A stretch of DNA of 64,000 nt from Leptolyngbya sp. NIES-2104. Lineage in GTDB: Bacteria; Cyanobacteriota; Cyanobacteriia; Leptolyngbyales; Leptolyngbyaceae. The stretch is taken from the NCBI RefSeq assembly GCF_001485215.1, contig NZ_BBWW01000001.1, forward strand, positions 5,208,001 to 5,272,000, given 5' to 3'. Under the pieces are notes generated by a model. The model saw only the letters and a program-made list of their open reading frames with translations, searched no databases and was not told the origin of the DNA. Shown one piece after another: positions 38,562 through 46,836 of this stretch. Made by a program: the position numbers and the translations under genes. How positions within the stretch are numbered: position 1 is the first letter of the stretch; each line of letters begins with the position of its first letter.

Positions 38562-38851
38562 AGAATCGTTAAGGTTCTTTCGTTGTTGCTGTTTCGGACT
38601 CACAACGGCACAGCGGCTCACCCAAGATTTGCTGCATCATTGAGGTGACTGTCTGCAAATGGTTTCTTGCTCGATCGCGAGTGTTACTCACTCTCTGACC
38701 CACTTGAGCGATCTTTTTACCATCGAAGAACACTTCTGGAAGTGGATAGTTCTGGAGGAATTGCATCATCGAAACGGTGTTGTCTGAAGTGGAACAAAAA
38801 AACTGGACAGGTGAATAAGCTACACCCCTCAACCTCATGGTAGGAGTAGAT

Positions 38852-39172
38852 ATGAGCCAAAACAAACGTAAACAACACAGCGCCCAGTTTAAAGCCAAAG
38901 TCGCCCTCGAAGCGATTAAAGGAGAAAAGACAATCGCGGAAATCGCGAGTCATTACAGCGTTCACCCCACGATGATCCACAACTGGAAACGGCAGCTTTT
39001 GGACGGTGCGAGTGAGTTGTTTGAACGCGGTGCGAAATCGAGTGCAGTGGAGCCAGAAACGAGCGCCCAAGTTGACGAGTTATATCGACAAATTGGCAAG
39101 TTGCAAGTGGAGCGAGATTTTTTAGCCAACAGGTCGGCACGATTGGGCTTGCCGACCGAAAAGCCTTGGTAG
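38852..39172 (+). CDS. IS3-family transposase OrfA
   Basis: OrfA carries the DNA-binding part of the transposase: 106 residues with a helix-turn-helix (FKAKVALEAIKGEKTIAEIASHYSVHPTMIHNWKRQ) and a leucine-zipper-like helix (VDELYRQIGKLQVERDF). The start is ATG 38852, with GGAG 6-7 bases upstream. At codon 90 the sequence T TTT TTA (39118-39124) is a classic -1 slippery heptamer in the correct phase. Ribosomes that slip there read on into OrfB and make the full transposase. Those that do not slip make this short protein, which in related elements represses transposition. Confidence 0.94.
   Translation: MSQNKRKQHSAQFKAKVALEAIKGEKTIAEIASHYSVHPTMIHNWKRQLLDGASELFERGAKSSAVEPETSAQVDELYRQIGKLQVERDFLANRSARLGLPTEKPW
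39118..39124 (+). promoter_or_regulatory. Programmed -1 frameshift site (TTTTTTA)
   Basis: The heptamer T-TTT-TTA lies in the OrfA frame. After a -1 slip the frame reads FFSQQVGTIGLADRKALVDS and joins OrfB without a stop, as in other IS3-family OrfAB fusions. Confidence 0.88.
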
Positions 39173-40008
39173 ATTCAGAGCATCCAGAGTTGAGCATTGT
39201 GCGTCAGTGTGAATTGTTGGGCATTGCGCGATCGAGTTTCTACTACCAAGCTTTGCCGCCGTCGGAAGAAGAACTGGCAATCATGCGGTTGCTCGACGAA
39301 CAATACTTGGAAACGCCGTTTTACGGCAGTCGGAAAATGACGGTGTTTCTGCAATCGCGAGGGTACAACGTGAATCGAAAACGGGTGCAACGGTTGATGC
39401 GGGAGATGGGGTTGTATGCGATCTATCCGAAACCCAATACCAGCAAAGCCGATCCAGAGCATCGGATTTATCCCTATCTGCTGCGAGGATTAGCCATTAC
39501 GAATGCGAATCAGGTCTGGTGTACCGACATTACCTATCTTCCAGGCGCGAAGGGACACTTTTACCTGGTAGCAGTGATGGACTGGTACAGCCGCAAAGTC
39601 TTGTCATGGCGCATCTCAAACACGTTAGAAGTGGCGTTTTGTGTGGAGGCATTGGATGAAGCATTAGCGGGTTATCCCAAGCCAGAGATCTTTAACAGTG
39701 ATCAAGGCGCACAGTTCACGGCGACAGCGTTCATCGATTGTCTCCAAGCAGCTCAAATCAACATCAGCATGGATGGGCGAGGCAGATGTCATGACAACAT
39801 TTTCATTGAGCGATTATGGCGGAGTTTGAAGTATGAGTTGATTTATCTCAAGTCATTCGAGAATGGACAGCATTTGAATCAAGAAGTGAAACACTGGTTT
39901 CAATGGTACAATCAAGTCAGACCACATCAAGGATTAGAATACAAGACACCGAATCAAGTGTATTGTAGTAGTCTAAAGAATGTGAACATGAAAGAAGCAA
40001 AAGCGTGA
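39166..40008 (+). CDS. IS3-family transposase OrfB (DDE integrase domain)
   Basis: This is the catalytic half of the transposase. The HTH_21-like segment (SIVRQCELLGIARSSFYYQA) is followed by the rve integrase core. The DDE triad is visible: D in WCTDITYLPG, D in FNSDQGAQFT and E in NIFIERLWRSLKYE. The C-terminal WYNQVRPHQGLEYKTPNQV is characteristic of the family. The frame opens with TTG at 39166, but it is most likely made as an OrfAB fusion by -1 frameshifting in OrfA. No internal stop or frameshift is present. The first codons overlap OrfA by seven bases. Confidence 0.95.
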   Translation: MVDSEHPELSIVRQCELLGIARSSFYYQALPPSEEELAIMRLLDEQYLETPFYGSRKMTVFLQSRGYNVNRKRVQRLMREMGLYAIYPKPNTSKADPEHRIYPYLLRGLAITNANQVWCTDITYLPGAKGHFYLVAVMDWYSRKVLSWRISNTLEVAFCVEALDEALAGYPKPEIFNSDQGAQFTATAFIDCLQAAQINISMDGRGRCHDNIFIERLWRSLKYELIYLKSFENGQHLNQEVKHWFQWYNQVRPHQGLEYKTPNQVYCSSLKNVNMKEAKA

Positions 40009-40513
40009 ATTGAATCTAGATCAGTAAAGTTAGTAGAATTGAGATCTAGAACTGTAGCTTATTCACTATCTATTTCTTGTCCAACCCTACGGGTCCATCT
40101 CAGTCATCTTTTGCAGAAAGTACGATCGCAGATCTCAACGACTGTACGGGTTCAACGCGACGACGATTGTAAATCACTTGTCCGAGTTGATGTAATAGAA
40201 GCTCACCCGGTAGCGTGTTCAGAGTTCGATCTAAGGTGAGAAAGTTGACGTTCACTGGTTGATTAAGAAATCCTCGTAGAGCTTCTGGATCGGCTCCAGC
40301 TAGTCTAAGTTGAAACTGTCGTACAGGTACTAACTGACCTGTTTCAACGAATTTTTGCATATCTTCAACCGAAAAGGTTTCTTGAAAAATTCCATATTTC
40401 AAGATGACTCGTTCAGCGGCAAGCGTTGGAGTCGCGTAACTGAAGACTCCAGCACCCAATCCCACCATTAGAGTTCGTCTAAGCCACTTTGATAACATCG
40501 TTTTAGAGATAAG

Positions 40514-41122
40514 TTATGGACAGCTTGCAACGCGATCGAGAGTCGAAGCGGATGGACAATTACAAATCAGATTAAACAAAAATTCATTTGCTTCTAGAGC
40601 AGGAGGAATGCGCTGTGCAAGTGCATTGACACGGTTGTAAGCCCGTTCGACGCGAGGGAGCTGTACAGTCATTTCGTTGATCGGATAGTTACTCATTACT
40701 TCCAGGATTGAGATGCTTTGATTATTTCGATAAGAAGTGATTAATGCCGATCGCAAAGGTTGTAAGCTATCAGGAACCGTAATCGAACCGAGAGCGTTAC
40801 TGAGTTGGAATAGCATAAAATCCGCGATCGTATTGTTAAAGTTGCGCTCACTCAAGGGACGAGGAATCGCAATCTCACGGGTTAACGTGGATCGGATTGC
40901 TTGGGAAGTATTGGGAATTCTGGCGAAAAAGCTTTGTAAAGTGGTTCGCTGGGTTTCACCTGTTTCGACAAATCTGCGGAAATCGCTAAATGGAACGGAG
41001 GTACGAGATTCGTTAAACACTAAAGTAACGGTGTCGATCGCACTAGCACGAGAACTCAAGGCAAGACTCATCGCTAGAAACACACCCATTCCTAAAATAT
41101 TAAGCTGTATTCTCTTATGCAT
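40514..41122 (-). CDS. Stand-alone exported DUF1400 protein
   Basis: This 202-residue protein is a tandem paralogue of the IS-interrupted gene 15 bp downstream. The signal peptide is at residues 1-28 (LGMGVFLAMSLALSSRASA). The DUF1400 pattern follows: TVTLVFNESRTSVPFSDFRRFVETGE, LSNALGSITVPDSLQPLRSAL, and the closing ISILEVMSNYPINEMTVQL. Both paralogues continue for about 55 residues into a helical tail with a CxC near the end (CNCPSAS here, CRCESE in the other). DUF1400 normally precedes an alpha/beta hydrolase domain; here a separate lipase gene lies 56 bp upstream, so the domain may act in trans. A shared 17-bp motif lies 61 bp upstream. Confidence 0.82.
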   Translation of the reverse strand: MHKRIQLNILGMGVFLAMSLALSSRASAIDTVTLVFNESRTSVPFSDFRRFVETGETQRTTLQSFFARIPNTSQAIRSTLTREIAIPRPLSERNFNNTIADFMLFQLSNALGSITVPDSLQPLRSALITSYRNNQSISILEVMSNYPINEMTVQLPRVERAYNRVNALAQRIPPALEANEFLFNLICNCPSASTLDRVASCP

Positions 41123-42266: not shown

Positions 42267-43193
42267 TTATTGATTCAAATCCTGACGACGACGGCTGCCG
42301 AATAGATGCGCGAAAACATAGGACATCACACAGCCAAATAGAAAAATCTGACAGGTGAGAAAAATCCATAGCAACAAAATCATCACGCCACCGATCACAC
42401 CATAAGACAGAAAATGGCTCCCGATCGAGATCACGCTATTACTCACTAATTGCTGAAGCCCAACCAGCAACGAAGCTACAATCAGCGCACCCAGCCACAC
42501 ATCGCGCCATGAAACATAGCTAGACGGTAAGGTTTTGTACAGAATGCAAATCGCGATCGCTAAAATCAAAAACGATGCACTCGTTTCTAATCCCCTTGTT
42601 AATTGAGATGGATCAATCTGAAGCCAAGAGACTGTTTCTTGAAACGTTGAGAACAGCTTCAAAATTCCCTTGATCACAATACTTGAAATCAATGAGGCAA
42701 CTAACAGCAAAGCCGTTCCCAGTACTAGCACAAATGAGAATAGCTTATTTGCCACAAAGAAAAGCATCATTTTCGCGGGTGATCCCGATTCAGAAATACG
42801 ACTCGACGATCGCCAAATCTTATTCACAGAACTTCTAAGAATGCCAAATACTGCACTCGCCGCCCACAGCAACACCACAAATCCGATGACTCCGGCTCCT
42901 ACACTATTTTGATTGAGCGAAATCACAGTTCCTTTGATTAACTCATGCACCTCTGGCGGAAGGTATCGCTGAATGGCTTGTTCGATCCCTTGAAATGCTT
43001 CTGTTCCAGGTGCAATCAGTTTACCGATAATGCTAAGAATCACCATCAGCAAAGGAAACAACGAAAACAGCGCAAAATAGGACAGCGAAGCCGCCATTCC
43101 GGGACAGTTATCTTGATCCCACTTCAGCCCGGTTTGAATCAGGAGTTGAGCGGGTTTTGAGGGAATCAGCGTCGATCGGATATATTGCAGCAT
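42267..43193 (-). CDS. YihY/BrkB (UPF0761) family membrane protein
   Basis: This 308-residue integral membrane protein belongs to the YihY/BrkB family, once thought to be RNase BN; its true role is unsettled. The N-terminal signature is GLKWDQDNCPGMAASLSYFALFSLFPLLMVIL, with the conserved A-x-x-Y-x-x-x-x-S-x-x-P-L core. About six membrane segments follow, including VGAGVIGFVVLLWAASAVFG and the C-terminal GVIGGVMILLLWIFLTCQIFLFG. The C-terminus is basic. Only 10 bp separate it from the large hydrolase gene upstream, and 26 bp from the lipase gene downstream, so the three form one operon. Confidence 0.92.
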   Translation of the reverse strand: MLQYIRSTLIPSKPAQLLIQTGLKWDQDNCPGMAASLSYFALFSLFPLLMVILSIIGKLIAPGTEAFQGIEQAIQRYLPPEVHELIKGTVISLNQNSVGAGVIGFVVLLWAASAVFGILRSSVNKIWRSSSRISESGSPAKMMLFFVANKLFSFVLVLGTALLLVASLISSIVIKGILKLFSTFQETVSWLQIDPSQLTRGLETSASFLILAIAICILYKTLPSSYVSWRDVWLGALIVASLLVGLQQLVSNSVISIGSHFLSYGVIGGVMILLLWIFLTCQIFLFGCVMSYVFAHLFGSRRRQDLNQ

Positions 43194-43203
43194 AGGACAT
43201 CCT

Positions 43204-46200
43204 TCACAAAGTCATGGGCGCGATCGGTTCAATGTCTGGATTGTGTCCGCCGACTTGATTCGTACGCAGCACCCAAACTGATGCACCTTGTTCTAAAAAG
43301 GTTTTGACGATCGCATCACTCGCTTTACGTGGGAGCAGTGTCCGCCAACTCCCTAAACCCGTCCAAAGATTGCGGAGGGGATCATCTTCGAGCGTTGTCC
43401 CTAGCTTAAATTCGTTCGTTTCCCAATCAGAACGCGGTGAACCAAACGGCTGCAATTGTGAATTGAGTCTGTGCTTAACTGCTAAAAGCTGCTGATACTG
43501 TTTTGCTTGATCTGGATTCTGACTTAACCAGCGCTCTAAATAAGATTGGTTCGCAGCAATTTCATCCGAGAGCGATCGAATACTCGCAAATAACGCTTGA
43601 TTCGCATCTTGAGCGCAATTGTTCGCAGGACCGACATAAGTTGCACCTGTTCCATCTCCGACCCGATATCGGGCGGTCATTGCTTCAAGCTGACGAATCA
43701 TACTATCTAAGGGCGATCGCTGGGTTCCGTTCAAGAGGTCAAAGCGACCCGTAAACGGCTCGAACTTGACTAAAACATCACACACCGGACGCACACCCAG
43801 CCAGCCAAATTGTCGATCGCCCATGTAGCGCGACCAATGTACCGTTCCTGATGTTAAGCCATCGGTGTTATGGGTGTAGACCTGATAGTATTGAATGTCA
43901 AATCGTCGCTCATCACTGATTGGATCATGAACAACGGTTGCAACCCCGTAGGCAAAATGACCGAAAAAGATCGGAGTTGCTGCCGCAGGTTCTTTTTTAT
44001 TGCCGCCAATGCCACCATAAACATGCAGTAATAAAGCGCGATCGCCAATTTTCCATTCGTCGATCGCGCTTTGATTGTTCTCAGATTGCCGATTTGCACA
44101 GAGAACCGATGAAATGTTGCCTTTTTGCTCGACTGCTTTTGCCCAGGATTCTTGTCGAATGTAGCGATAAGCAGCCTTGCTACCAAACACAACGCGATCG
44201 GGCTGAAGACGCAACAGCGATCGAGGTGCAAGCGATTGAACGACAAAGACCCCAGACGCATCTTTCGCACCGTAAATGTACCATCCTGTTTCGTTGAGGG
44301 GCGACCGTTCTAGCTTGTTCGCAGTGGAAGGAAGGCTACCATAGCACTGAGCGATGACCACTTCAGGTAAACGAACGGCTTCTTTCCATCCGTCAAAATC
44401 GCGAGATGCTCGGTTAAAGTGCGTCACCTGAAAACAATTGCTTCCGGCGATCGGGAATTCAAAGCGCACTAAGCCATAGTATCGTCCCGTAATTTCTGAA
44501 GGGGGGTGCTGAATGTACAAGGTTGAGCGATCGATCTCAACGGGATCTGTCAACATCACGATCAGATCATCGCTTGGGTGAGAGGCTGCAAGCGATTCGA
44601 GCGGTCCGACTTGTTGCCAGTGATTCACGCGATCGGGGTGAATTGTGCCGCCGTACTGACTGGAATAAGTTGCATTCACACTAAAATGCACATCGTGGGT
44701 AACGGCTCGAATCCATTGTTTGAGAGTCGGATCGTCTGCCCAACGCAGTACAACTTTTTTACCAATCAGTGATTCGTAGCCAGCAGGGGCATGATGCACT
44801 TCAAACCAAATTCCTCGAAGTTGACGACGCTCTGAGATCTGAGGCAGAATCAAACGACCCATCCAAGGCGCGATCGAGCGATACCAGTTTGAATCAACAG
44901 TTTGATCAAGCGGATAGTGCGTATAGTTGTTAAAATCTGCTTGTTTGTAGAGTTCGTAGTTGCTGATTGCTCTGGCGCGAGGAGGTGTATGAATGAGAAA
45001 ATCCCCGTTCAGGATTGAGAGGACTTGATCGATCGTATATTCAAGATGGCTCTGTCCATTCTGTAGATACGCATTCGGGTCCATGATTCCACCCGGAACC
45101 TGATGCCCCATCGCACCCAGCGAAATCTCGCTGATCTTCCCTTTTCGTAAGGCTCGATTCCAGTAAGAGAGCGGGAACCATTTACGTCGCCCCGGAAACA
45201 ATAAAGGACCTAAAGCAGCAACACTATCTTGATCCCCAACTAAATGGTATAGATGCTCTAACTTTAGAAAATTATTGTTCGCACTCATCACACCACCGAG
45301 CGAAATCACTTCAATCTCAGTTTCTAAAGCACGTCTGAGGTAAGGAGCTGCTGCGACCGACATTTGAGCGCCGCCACTATAGCCAATTAATGTAATCGGT
45401 GTGCCTTCTTTTGGTTGGTAGCCACGCTGAATCAAGCCATTATAGATGACCTGAGCAATGCCCTGATTGTAGATCGGACCATATCGCTTATCGGCGGAAA
45501 CTGCCACAATCCAAGCGTTTCGGATATTGACCATCAATCCGAGCAGCGCCATTGGATTTTCCCAACGCATTCGATCGGCAAGTCGCCACACCCAAGATAA
45601 AGGTCGATCGCTAACTAAGGCTTGATTTCGCACCGAGTAGAGCATTAGTCCTCTCACTAGCTCCATTCGTTCCGGTAGCGCAGGATCGAGTGCAGTGAGA
45701 AAGTCCTCCACATCAGGCGTGTAAGCTTCTCCAGATTGACCCACACCATCCAAGTAAACGACATAGCGATCGACTTGCTTAGAAGCTTGGCTCACAGTAG
45801 TCTGAGAGAGTTCTTTAGTCTCTAGCTCATCTCCAAACCAACCCGCCCACCAGCCCAATGTCTCCAAAGGGGCTAACAATCCAGCAAAGATCAGCGCCAC
45901 AATACCAATCCACGACAGATCAAATGTCCATCGCACCACACGTGGCAGGGTTGCATACCAGCTAAATAAACTGAGGCGAATCGGGCGCAAAAGGAGCGCA
46001 ACGACAACAAACAGCAACACCATTCCAAACAGAATTAACCCCAAACGAATCGCTTGAGGAATTCCCTGAAATCGGTTCTCCATCCGAACGCCCAGCGTTT
46101 GTGTATCCTGAGTGGGAAGCTCGATCGTGGTTGTTCCACTCGTATAAAGGGGAGCAACAGAACCAACCTCGATCGCAGAATTTGAGGACAAAATTCTGGT

Positions 46201-46836
46201 TTCCAAGCCTGTCTGGACTTGCTCTCTTAAGCGCGATCGCTGTTTTACTAAATCCACACCTGCCACTTTGCGATCGAGCTTTTGTCCGAATCGTGCGATC
46301 GGCTGTCCGATTGTTCCTTGTAGCAGTTGCAGGACAATCCAACCCACTGCAACATGCGTAAACGCCGCTGCACCTCCGACCTGAGCAACCGCACTCACCG
46401 CAGTCACCATTTGAAGTAAATGCCAGACCGAAAGCACATTGAGAATCGGACTTCCCAGATGTGGTAATGCTCCTAAGAATCCAAACAACAGCGGGGTATA
46501 GCTCAATCCAAACGCTTCGACTAAATCCCCCCAGGAAATTCGTGCAAACCCAGGAAGTAAGCCAATCAACCAAGTGCTAAACACCAAAAACAGGAACCCA
46601 AACGCGAACAAAATCGCATTGAGCAGCAAGCTCAGTAGAAATCGAACGGGCTTGACTCGGTTTGCAAACAGAATCACACTTTGTCCAATTCCTAAAGAGA
46701 GTCCAGCACCCAGCACCACTAAAAGCGCGATCGCTTGTCCCTGTGGATTGCGAATGATTCGTGCAAAAGCATCCTGACTGAGATAAAGTGCACCGTTGAT
46801 TAAATCGCTGAATGGATTGAGCAGAGGATCAGGCAT
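43204..46836 (-). CDS. Large membrane protein with alpha/beta-hydrolase domain and an unrecognised C-terminal half
   Basis: The 1210 residues fall in three parts. Residues 34-330 hold about six membrane segments. Residues 356-610 look like an alpha/beta hydrolase: RYVVYLDGVGQSG, the elbow GYSGGAQ with S487, the acid at GDQD (D535/D537) and H578 in LGAMGHQVPGG. Residues 620-1210 match nothing I know by name, but the order H960 (IFFGHFAYG), H1000 (TVHWSRYM) and C1074 (ANNCAQDANQAL) resembles a circularly permuted papain-like (NlpC/LRAT-type) site. The N-terminus MPDPLLNPFSDLI has no cleavable signal. It is the first gene of an operon with YihY and the lipase, 148 bp after a shared 17-bp motif. 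Substrates are unknown. Confidence 0.75.
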   Translation of the reverse strand: MPDPLLNPFSDLINGALYLSQDAFARIIRNPQGQAIALLVVLGAGLSLGIGQSVILFANRVKPVRFLLSLLLNAILFAFGFLFLVFSTWLIGLLPGFARISWGDLVEAFGLSYTPLLFGFLGALPHLGSPILNVLSVWHLLQMVTAVSAVAQVGGAAAFTHVAVGWIVLQLLQGTIGQPIARFGQKLDRKVAGVDLVKQRSRLREQVQTGLETRILSSNSAIEVGSVAPLYTSGTTTIELPTQDTQTLGVRMENRFQGIPQAIRLGLILFGMVLLFVVVALLLRPIRLSLFSWYATLPRVVRWTFDLSWIGIVALIFAGLLAPLETLGWWAGWFGDELETKELSQTTVSQASKQVDRYVVYLDGVGQSGEAYTPDVEDFLTALDPALPERMELVRGLMLYSVRNQALVSDRPLSWVWRLADRMRWENPMALLGLMVNIRNAWIVAVSADKRYGPIYNQGIAQVIYNGLIQRGYQPKEGTPITLIGYSGGAQMSVAAAPYLRRALETEIEVISLGGVMSANNNFLKLEHLYHLVGDQDSVAALGPLLFPGRRKWFPLSYWNRALRKGKISEISLGAMGHQVPGGIMDPNAYLQNGQSHLEYTIDQVLSILNGDFLIHTPPRARAISNYELYKQADFNNYTHYPLDQTVDSNWYRSIAPWMGRLILPQISERRQLRGIWFEVHHAPAGYESLIGKKVVLRWADDPTLKQWIRAVTHDVHFSVNATYSSQYGGTIHPDRVNHWQQVGPLESLAASHPSDDLIVMLTDPVEIDRSTLYIQHPPSEITGRYYGLVRFEFPIAGSNCFQVTHFNRASRDFDGWKEAVRLPEVVIAQCYGSLPSTANKLERSPLNETGWYIYGAKDASGVFVVQSLAPRSLLRLQPDRVVFGSKAAYRYIRQESWAKAVEQKGNISSVLCANRQSENNQSAIDEWKIGDRALLLHVYGGIGGNKKEPAAATPIFFGHFAYGVATVVHDPISDERRFDIQYYQVYTHNTDGLTSGTVHWSRYMGDRQFGWLGVRPVCDVLVKFEPFTGRFDLLNGTQRSPLDSMIRQLEAMTARYRVGDGTGATYVGPANNCAQDANQALFASIRSLSDEIAANQSYLERWLSQNPDQAKQYQQLLAVKHRLNSQLQPFGSPRSDWETNEFKLGTTLEDDPLRNLWTGLGSWRTLLPRKASDAIVKTFLEQGASVWVLRTNQVGGHNPDIEPIAPMTL

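Follow-up and report, generated by a model that had tools for sequence, protein, structure and literature searches.

The gene at positions 43204..46836 of a 64,000-nucleotide stretch of the Leptolyngbya sp. NIES-2104 genome (the window, whose positions are counted from its first letter) encodes a 1210-residue protein that we interpret, with moderate confidence, as a polytopic cyanobacterial membrane enzyme with two extracytoplasmic active sites acting on acyl lipids or lipoproteins. The gene, its modules, its conservation, the fold of its hydrolase domain and the predicted secondary-structure placement of two C-terminal residues, H960 and C1074, are established. A preliminary description of this DNA had proposed serine and cysteine sites together on one membrane protein; the serine site is now backed by a fold search and an invariant triad, and the cysteine site is plausible. 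The literature search found no title or abstract describing the 1210-residue protein or the domain fusions reported below (Yip1–hydrolase–C and C–CPBP).

A single open reading frame (ORF) fills 43204-46836 exactly on the minus strand, as do all features of the gene given below, with the triplet 43206-43204 as its stop codon; the codons of the key residues were verified individually. The same ORF had been reported before with these ends and no strand, which we add. Comparison with three relatives gave nonsynonymous divergence (dN) of 0.09-0.23 and synonymous divergence (dS) of 0.93-2.08, a ratio of ∼0.1, with similar values for residues 1-625 and 626-1210. Because dN is about one-tenth of dS in both halves and 35 of the 58 genomes searched (own genome included) hold a match to the protein, the gene is real and constrained, with both halves under purifying selection. 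A second full-length copy in the same genome (G000:C1:213540-217160) is 58% identical to the window protein and has all proposed catalytic residues. The whole protein reached no Pfam or NCBIfam family at its cut-off, and a PDB sequence search returned no chain at E ≤ 1.

The first active site is well supported. Residues 355-616 (44989..45774) form an alpha/beta hydrolase with the triad S487-D537-H578: in an alignment of the membrane and hydrolase part (A3, 61 sequences), G485, S487, G489, D537, and H578 are each found in 61 of 61, making up a GxSxG elbow (GYSGG in the window protein) with nucleophile S487 (45376..45378), acid D537 (45226..45228), and base H578 (45103..45105). The preliminary description had recognized this triad with either D535 or D537 as its acid and had named the conservation of S487 as a check, which came out in its favor. 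The acid is D537, since position 535 is Asp in only 24 of 61 sequences, and D535 was rejected. Structural comparison with VIA-align placed TesA first (Z 14.4, 169 aligned residues, root-mean-square deviation [rmsd] 3.1), and the 50 matches listed are mostly esterases, lipases, thioesterases, and dienelactone hydrolases; Foldseek gave a probability of 1.00 for the hydrolase part, with a best E of 6.2e-3. Fold and Ser-Asp-His triad are thus shared with the TesA thioesterase, feruloyl esterase, dienelactone hydrolase, and APT1, whereas the window protein's domain sits in one chain with membrane helices and another putative active site and lies under the Pfam cut-offs (nearest entry DUF726, E 0.16; stray matches in ≤ 5 of the 61 members were treated as chance). 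From fold and triad, esterase or thioesterase activity is predicted for this site. Records of Sinorhizobium, Microvirga, and Nonomuraea contain relatives of the hydrolase at 29–33% identity, and the Nonomuraea relative retains the Ser, Asp, and His of the triad. In that record (L211 2984-4891), the open frame extends for more than 300 residues ahead of the hydrolase part, with no Pfam match there at E ≤ 0.05.

The C-terminal domain (C domain, residues 625-1210, 43207..44964; model mean predicted local distance difference test score [pLDDT] 85.6, predicted template modeling score [pTM] 0.90) has no recognized Pfam or NCBIfam entry. The earlier statement that the last ∼590 residues match no nameable family holds in Pfam, NCBIfam, and PDB sequence searches: the window domain has no Pfam or NCBIfam match, and a PDB sequence search with it found nothing at E ≤ 1. 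An alignment of 82 C-domain sequences (A2) combines the window protein with 81 sequences from 79 of 80 loci, L052 being left out for want of an anchor. Scanned singly, these 82 members gave scattered Pfam matches, each in ≤ 3 members and treated as chance (best DUF4880, E 7e-4), no match to PF05708 or PF04970 at E ≤ 0.1, and no NCBIfam match at E ≤ 0.01. PDB sequence matches of the core described next, at E up to 10, were antibody chains only and were likewise treated as chance.

Within this domain, residues 925-1095 (43552..44064) may form a catalytic core like that of the permuted NlpC/P60 enzymes (YiiX/LRAT-like). H960 (43957..43959, proposed base), Q985 (43882..43884, proposed third polar residue), Y1057 (43666..43668, proposed signature tyrosine), and H938 are each present in 82 of 82 A2 sequences, and C1074 (43615..43617, proposed nucleophile) in 81 of 82; a more distant C-domain set (A1, 24 sequences) has H960, Q985, and C1074 in all 24 and Y1057 in 23. 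With at most one exception allowed among the 82 rows, the conserved positions include a single Cys, C1074, and just three His and two Gln. H960, Q985, and C1074 also recur in all eight further C-domain proteins inspected, whatever the fusion partner. The conservation of C1074 among homologues, another check named in the preliminary description, was thus confirmed. The one A2 row with Ser at this position, L060 8004-9830 from Stenomitos frigidus, is possibly a natural inactive or serine variant.

Permuted NlpC/P60 enzymes have a Cys/His dyad with a polar residue and a Tyr (H49, E64, Y115, and C128 in YiiX), according to the parts of Xu et al. 2011 (PMC3142127) on which we draw, and the order H960-Q985-Y1057-C1074 matches that His-polar-Tyr-Cys signature as defined there. 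In the C-domain model, H960 is the first residue of a strand (350-361 in model numbering) and C1074 the first of a helix (464-484), and Q985 sits at the end of the strand that follows the H960 strand; judged from the DSSP strand register, with strands 350-361 and 366-375 taken as one hairpin, Q985 would face the same side as H960. Residue order, invariance, and secondary structure are the main evidence for a thiol site. The domain also shares a Gly-Asp ahead of the His (G931 in 82 of 82, D932 in 72 of 82) that is seen in LRAT-type sequences. In other respects it differs from the permuted families (YaeF/YiiX-like PF05708 and LRAT-like PF04970): the His-to-polar spacing is 25 residues compared with 15 in YiiX (as given in the same parts of PMC3142127), the core sits inside a 590-residue domain with an OB-like part, neither Pfam family matches, and the profile score is weak. 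Because the profiles do not establish membership, we describe the domain as one that would work like a permuted NlpC/P60 enzyme, not as a member of that family. The catalytic set first put forward, H960, H1000, and C1074, is retained for H960 and C1074 only: H1000 (43837..43839) is His in 75 of 82 sequences (otherwise Ala, Ser, or Thr) and is replaced by Asp, Ser, Lys, or Thr in five of the eight further proteins, and since it is not conserved it is ruled out as the second catalytic residue, with Q985 and Y1057 invariant instead. A cysteine site at C1074 is plausible, given the motif order and the predicted secondary structure.

The contexts in which the C domain occurs suggest a substrate class. 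The 58-genome search showed the protein to be a mosaic of modules that are also found apart, A (∼10-210), B (∼297-607), and C (∼620-1210). A and B are separate, divergent neighbors in 15 of the 58 genomes, including this one (G000:C1:3701118-3701642, minus strand, for A and 3701834-3702727, plus strand, for B), and in L099, L100, L102, L103, L105, and L107 a stand-alone A ORF lies upstream of a B-C fusion. The loci contain 117 distinct C-containing ORFs: 92 have a long N-terminal part, 11 are short and extended at the C-terminus, and 14 are short and not extended, seven of these 14 being cut or split genes. In all three of the 11 extended ORFs that were scanned (L023, L025, and L026), the extension exceeds the cut-off of PF02517 (CPBP/Rce1-like); its CPBP identity in the other eight was judged by motif. 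The EExxxR motif is intact in 8 of the 11 C–CPBP ORFs, with SE for its glutamate pair in L023 and QE in L050 and L061. An A-B-C gene is followed on the same strand by a second C gene in L012 (gap ∼9 bp; the locus ends within the second frame, whose length in the genome search is 898 residues), L061 (∼110 bp), and L050 (∼1.5 kb). The C–CPBP proteins of L050 (11285-13936) and L061 (6893-9580), both downstream of an A-B-C gene and both with QE, cluster on the C-domain tree.

Lipoprotein N-acylation in Staphylococcus aureus requires both LnsA and LnsB; LnsA belongs to the NlpC/P60 superfamily, has a predicted signal peptide, and has permuted proteins as its closest homologues, and LnsB is related to CPBP proteins (PMC7387801, in the sections used here). 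The C–CPBP fusion parallels this pair and suggests by analogy that the C domain transfers acyl groups. In both cases an NlpC/P60-type protein is coupled to a CPBP-related one, in a single chain in relatives of the window protein although not in the window protein itself. The parallel has limits: LnsA has 189 residues and the C domain ∼590, and LnsB departs from the CPBP catalytic motifs whereas most C–CPBP ORFs retain EExxxR (for the Lns proteins, the same sections of PMC7387801); moreover, the NIES-2104 genome has an Lnt. An acyl lipid or lipoprotein is the favored substrate class because the C–CPBP fusions resemble LnsA/LnsB, because a fatty acid was identified in the pocket of YiiX (PMC3142127, in the parts cited above), and because genes of A-B-C and C–CPBP type stand in series on one strand in L012, L061, and L050.

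The N-terminal part would anchor the enzyme. An AlphaFold2 model of residues 1-625 (61 sequences, mean pLDDT 79.1, pTM 0.76) shows five helices in module A, a Yip1-type bundle (residues 10-182, 46291..46809), then two further membrane helices (residues 258-335, 45832..46065), and then the alpha/beta domain. The six membrane segments counted earlier become seven long helices in this model, the fifth weakly hydrophobic (mean 0.87), so the count is six or seven. The likeness to the Yip1 family (PF04893) lies in the five-helix module and in separate A homologues (∼200 residues) that exceed the Pfam cut-off in L028, L029, and L204 and fall below it in L099 and L102; in the Pfam scan, neither the window protein itself nor the separate A proteins of L100, L103, L105, and L107 matched the model. 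Across the 61 proteins, the loop between helices 6 and 7 is basic (means of 2.8 Lys + Arg and 1.7 Asp + Glu per protein) and the segment after helix 7 is acidic (5.2 Asp + Glu and 1.1 Lys + Arg). The separate B proteins of L028, L029, and L030 start with basic residues and one hydrophobic stretch (judged by eye), and all 11 C–CPBP ORFs have an N-terminal hydrophobic segment, mostly preceded by basic residues. Charge pattern and N-terminal segments together indicate that the hydrolase and the C domain probably lie outside the cytoplasm.

On these grounds the protein could work as follows. The Yip1-type bundle and the two further helices would serve as membrane anchor; the serine site, through Ser-Asp-His, would hydrolyze an acyl ester or thioester; H960, oriented by Q985, would act as base to activate C1074; and C1074 would accept the acyl group as a thioester, with Y1057 close to the acyl carbonyl, and would hand it on to water or to an acceptor bearing an amine or hydroxyl group. 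At the membrane, the most likely substrate would be an acyl lipid or a lipoprotein. Thiol chemistry, compartment, substrate, and the cooperation of the two sites are what we infer in this scheme. In its most specific form, put forward tentatively, a Yip1 scaffold would hold a serine hydrolase and a thiol acyltransferase of permuted papain-like type in one extracytoplasmic chain that remodels acyl groups, one site freeing an acyl chain and the other transferring it, and the C domain, where it is joined to CPBP instead, would be part of a one-chain counterpart of LnsA/LnsB.

Several results weigh against this proposal. With the 600-residue C model as query, Foldseek found no PDB or viral structure at E ≤ 0.001; the fold search named in the preliminary description therefore yielded no significant solved or viral relative. 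The profile–profile comparison, also named there, was weak: hhalign of the core (a query of 103 of 105 sequences) with nine YiiX-type sequences gave P 0.019 and a score of 20.0, and 3 of 150 column-shuffled decoys scored at least as high (best decoy 26.9). With one YiiX-type sequence as the target, the core gave P 0.054 and a larger lobe P 0.033. The core gave no signal with LRAT, and LRAT with the YiiX-type set gave 81%. The nine YiiX-type sequences were picked by a pattern requiring Gly-Asp, His, and Cys in order and are not a neutral sample, so the Gly-Asp common to them is no evidence. The idea of a circularly permuted papain-like (NlpC/LRAT) fold fits better than its first proposal could show, through the four-residue signature and the secondary structure, but finds little in profiles or fold searches. 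In addition, the L060 homologue has Ser in place of C1074, and the N-termini of C-only ORFs speak against a fixed extracytoplasmic location of the C domain: five of the seven whole ones (L019, L027, L043, L098, and L125) have no hydrophobic segment at the N-terminus, and L024 and L138 have one that is followed by basic residues. Finally, 48 of the 58 genomes searched have LNT_N, this genome being one of them, so lipoprotein N-acylation needs no substitute enzyme. It occurs in 24 of the 27 genomes holding a C-domain sequence (missing from G027, G032, and G040) versus 24 of the 31 without one, which rules out the C protein as a plain Lnt substitute. Lnb_N (PF13387) matched in none of 39 genomes.

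In a somewhat unlikely alternative, the C domain would be a permuted papain-like enzyme that attacks the cell wall or envelope proteins as a peptidase or amidase, and the hydrolase would do separate work. The NlpC/P60 superfamily does include wall amidases and peptidases (PMC7387801 and PMC3142127, as far as the parts used here go), and the CPBP partner keeps its protease motif in most C–CPBP ORFs. The wall enzymes, however, belong to the non-permuted branch with a hydrophilic S1 site, whereas the C domain has the residue order of the permuted branch, and the S1 site is hydrophobic in all three permuted structures that were compared (PMC3142127, within the same limits); the partner fused to it in the window protein, moreover, is an esterase-type hydrolase.

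We consider it unlikely that the serine hydrolase is the sole enzyme and the C domain a new binding or scaffold fold in which the conserved Cys and His have a structural or redox role. The lack of any significant profile, sequence, or fold match would fit such a domain, as would the invariance of many Gly, Trp, Pro, and Tyr positions and an OB-like barrel at residues 782-873 (44218..44493), which suggests binding. VIA-align of the C model returned mostly OB-fold matches in this region, with a best Z of 6.5 (72 aligned residues, rmsd 3.1), below the caution line of Z 8; the matching chains are mostly of SSB, PriB, RPA, MCM, and CusF/SilF type, which we take to be OB folds. As the comparison of the whole C model barely probed the core, the missing NlpC/P60 matches are not evidence for another fold. 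What speaks against a purely structural role is that C1074 stands alone among Cys, and H960 among just three His, in being conserved throughout or in all but one of the 82 rows; that both are placed as in permuted enzymes, with an invariant Tyr ahead of the Cys; and that H960, Q985, and C1074 persist in 8 of 8 further C proteins regardless of partner. A chance or decayed fusion without function is very improbable: the gene is split over two frames in a few relatives (L013, L022, and L069), but both halves have dN at ∼0.1 of dS, the full A-B-C label applies to 72 of 116 tree rows, and the active-site residues are nearly invariant.

The C domain occurs in 47 of 386 genomes of a phylum sample (own genome included). 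A genome-collection scan gave 421 candidate relatives, and among the best 80 of the 421, which are the loci used here, 79 have titles that point to cyanobacteria, either by the name itself or through a genus generally known to be cyanobacterial. The remaining one, L071, is titled Candidatus Gracilibacteria and carries an A-B-C gene; since it pairs with L070 (Hydrococcus) at a support of 100 on the tree, it may be a mis-binned contig. Among viral contigs, 195 stretches matched the search pattern and none encoded a relative. On the C-domain tree of 116 rows, with 72 of the full form, we counted two changes for the C–CPBP form, eight for C alone (for eight rows), and 11 for A-B-C.

The next gene in the same direction (42267..43193, minus strand), 10 bp past the stop codon, belongs to the BrkB/YihY family (PF03631). 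A member of its cluster lies directly downstream in L031, L033, L035, L038, L039, and L060 as well, and a BrkB-type gene is found within the next seven downstream genes in just 10 of 77 loci (window included). Beyond it, the window has a class 3 lipase and then two short ORFs of one sequence cluster (40100-41122, minus strand), of which the one scanned, 40514-41122, matches DUF1400; the L034 member of this cluster has 867 residues and combines DUF1400 with a PF03417 (AAT) domain. Between these ORFs and a DUF3611 gene lie two adjoining ORFs at 38837-40008 on the plus strand, which may encode an IS3-type transposase. Counted over 81 loci (window included), a DUF3611-type gene is present in 15, BrkB in 11, DUF308 in 7, and DUF1400 in 4. 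The linkage to these membrane and hydrolase genes is partial and is no proof of function, to which the neighborhood is a weak guide.

A domain of ∼590 residues, for which one genome-collection scan gave 421 candidate relatives, has no recognized family entry, yet it bears a thiol signature whose conserved residues are like those of enzymes that transfer fatty acyl groups. It is found again and again with one of two membrane partners that are unrelated to each other, a hydrolase of esterase type and a protease-like CPBP domain. Outside the cytoplasm, a single protein may both cut acyl chains and move them. If acyl transfer is indeed what the C domain does, the LnsA/LnsB pairing of S. aureus would gain a distant, fused parallel, and cyanobacteria would have an unrecognized route for remodeling membrane lipids or lipoproteins.

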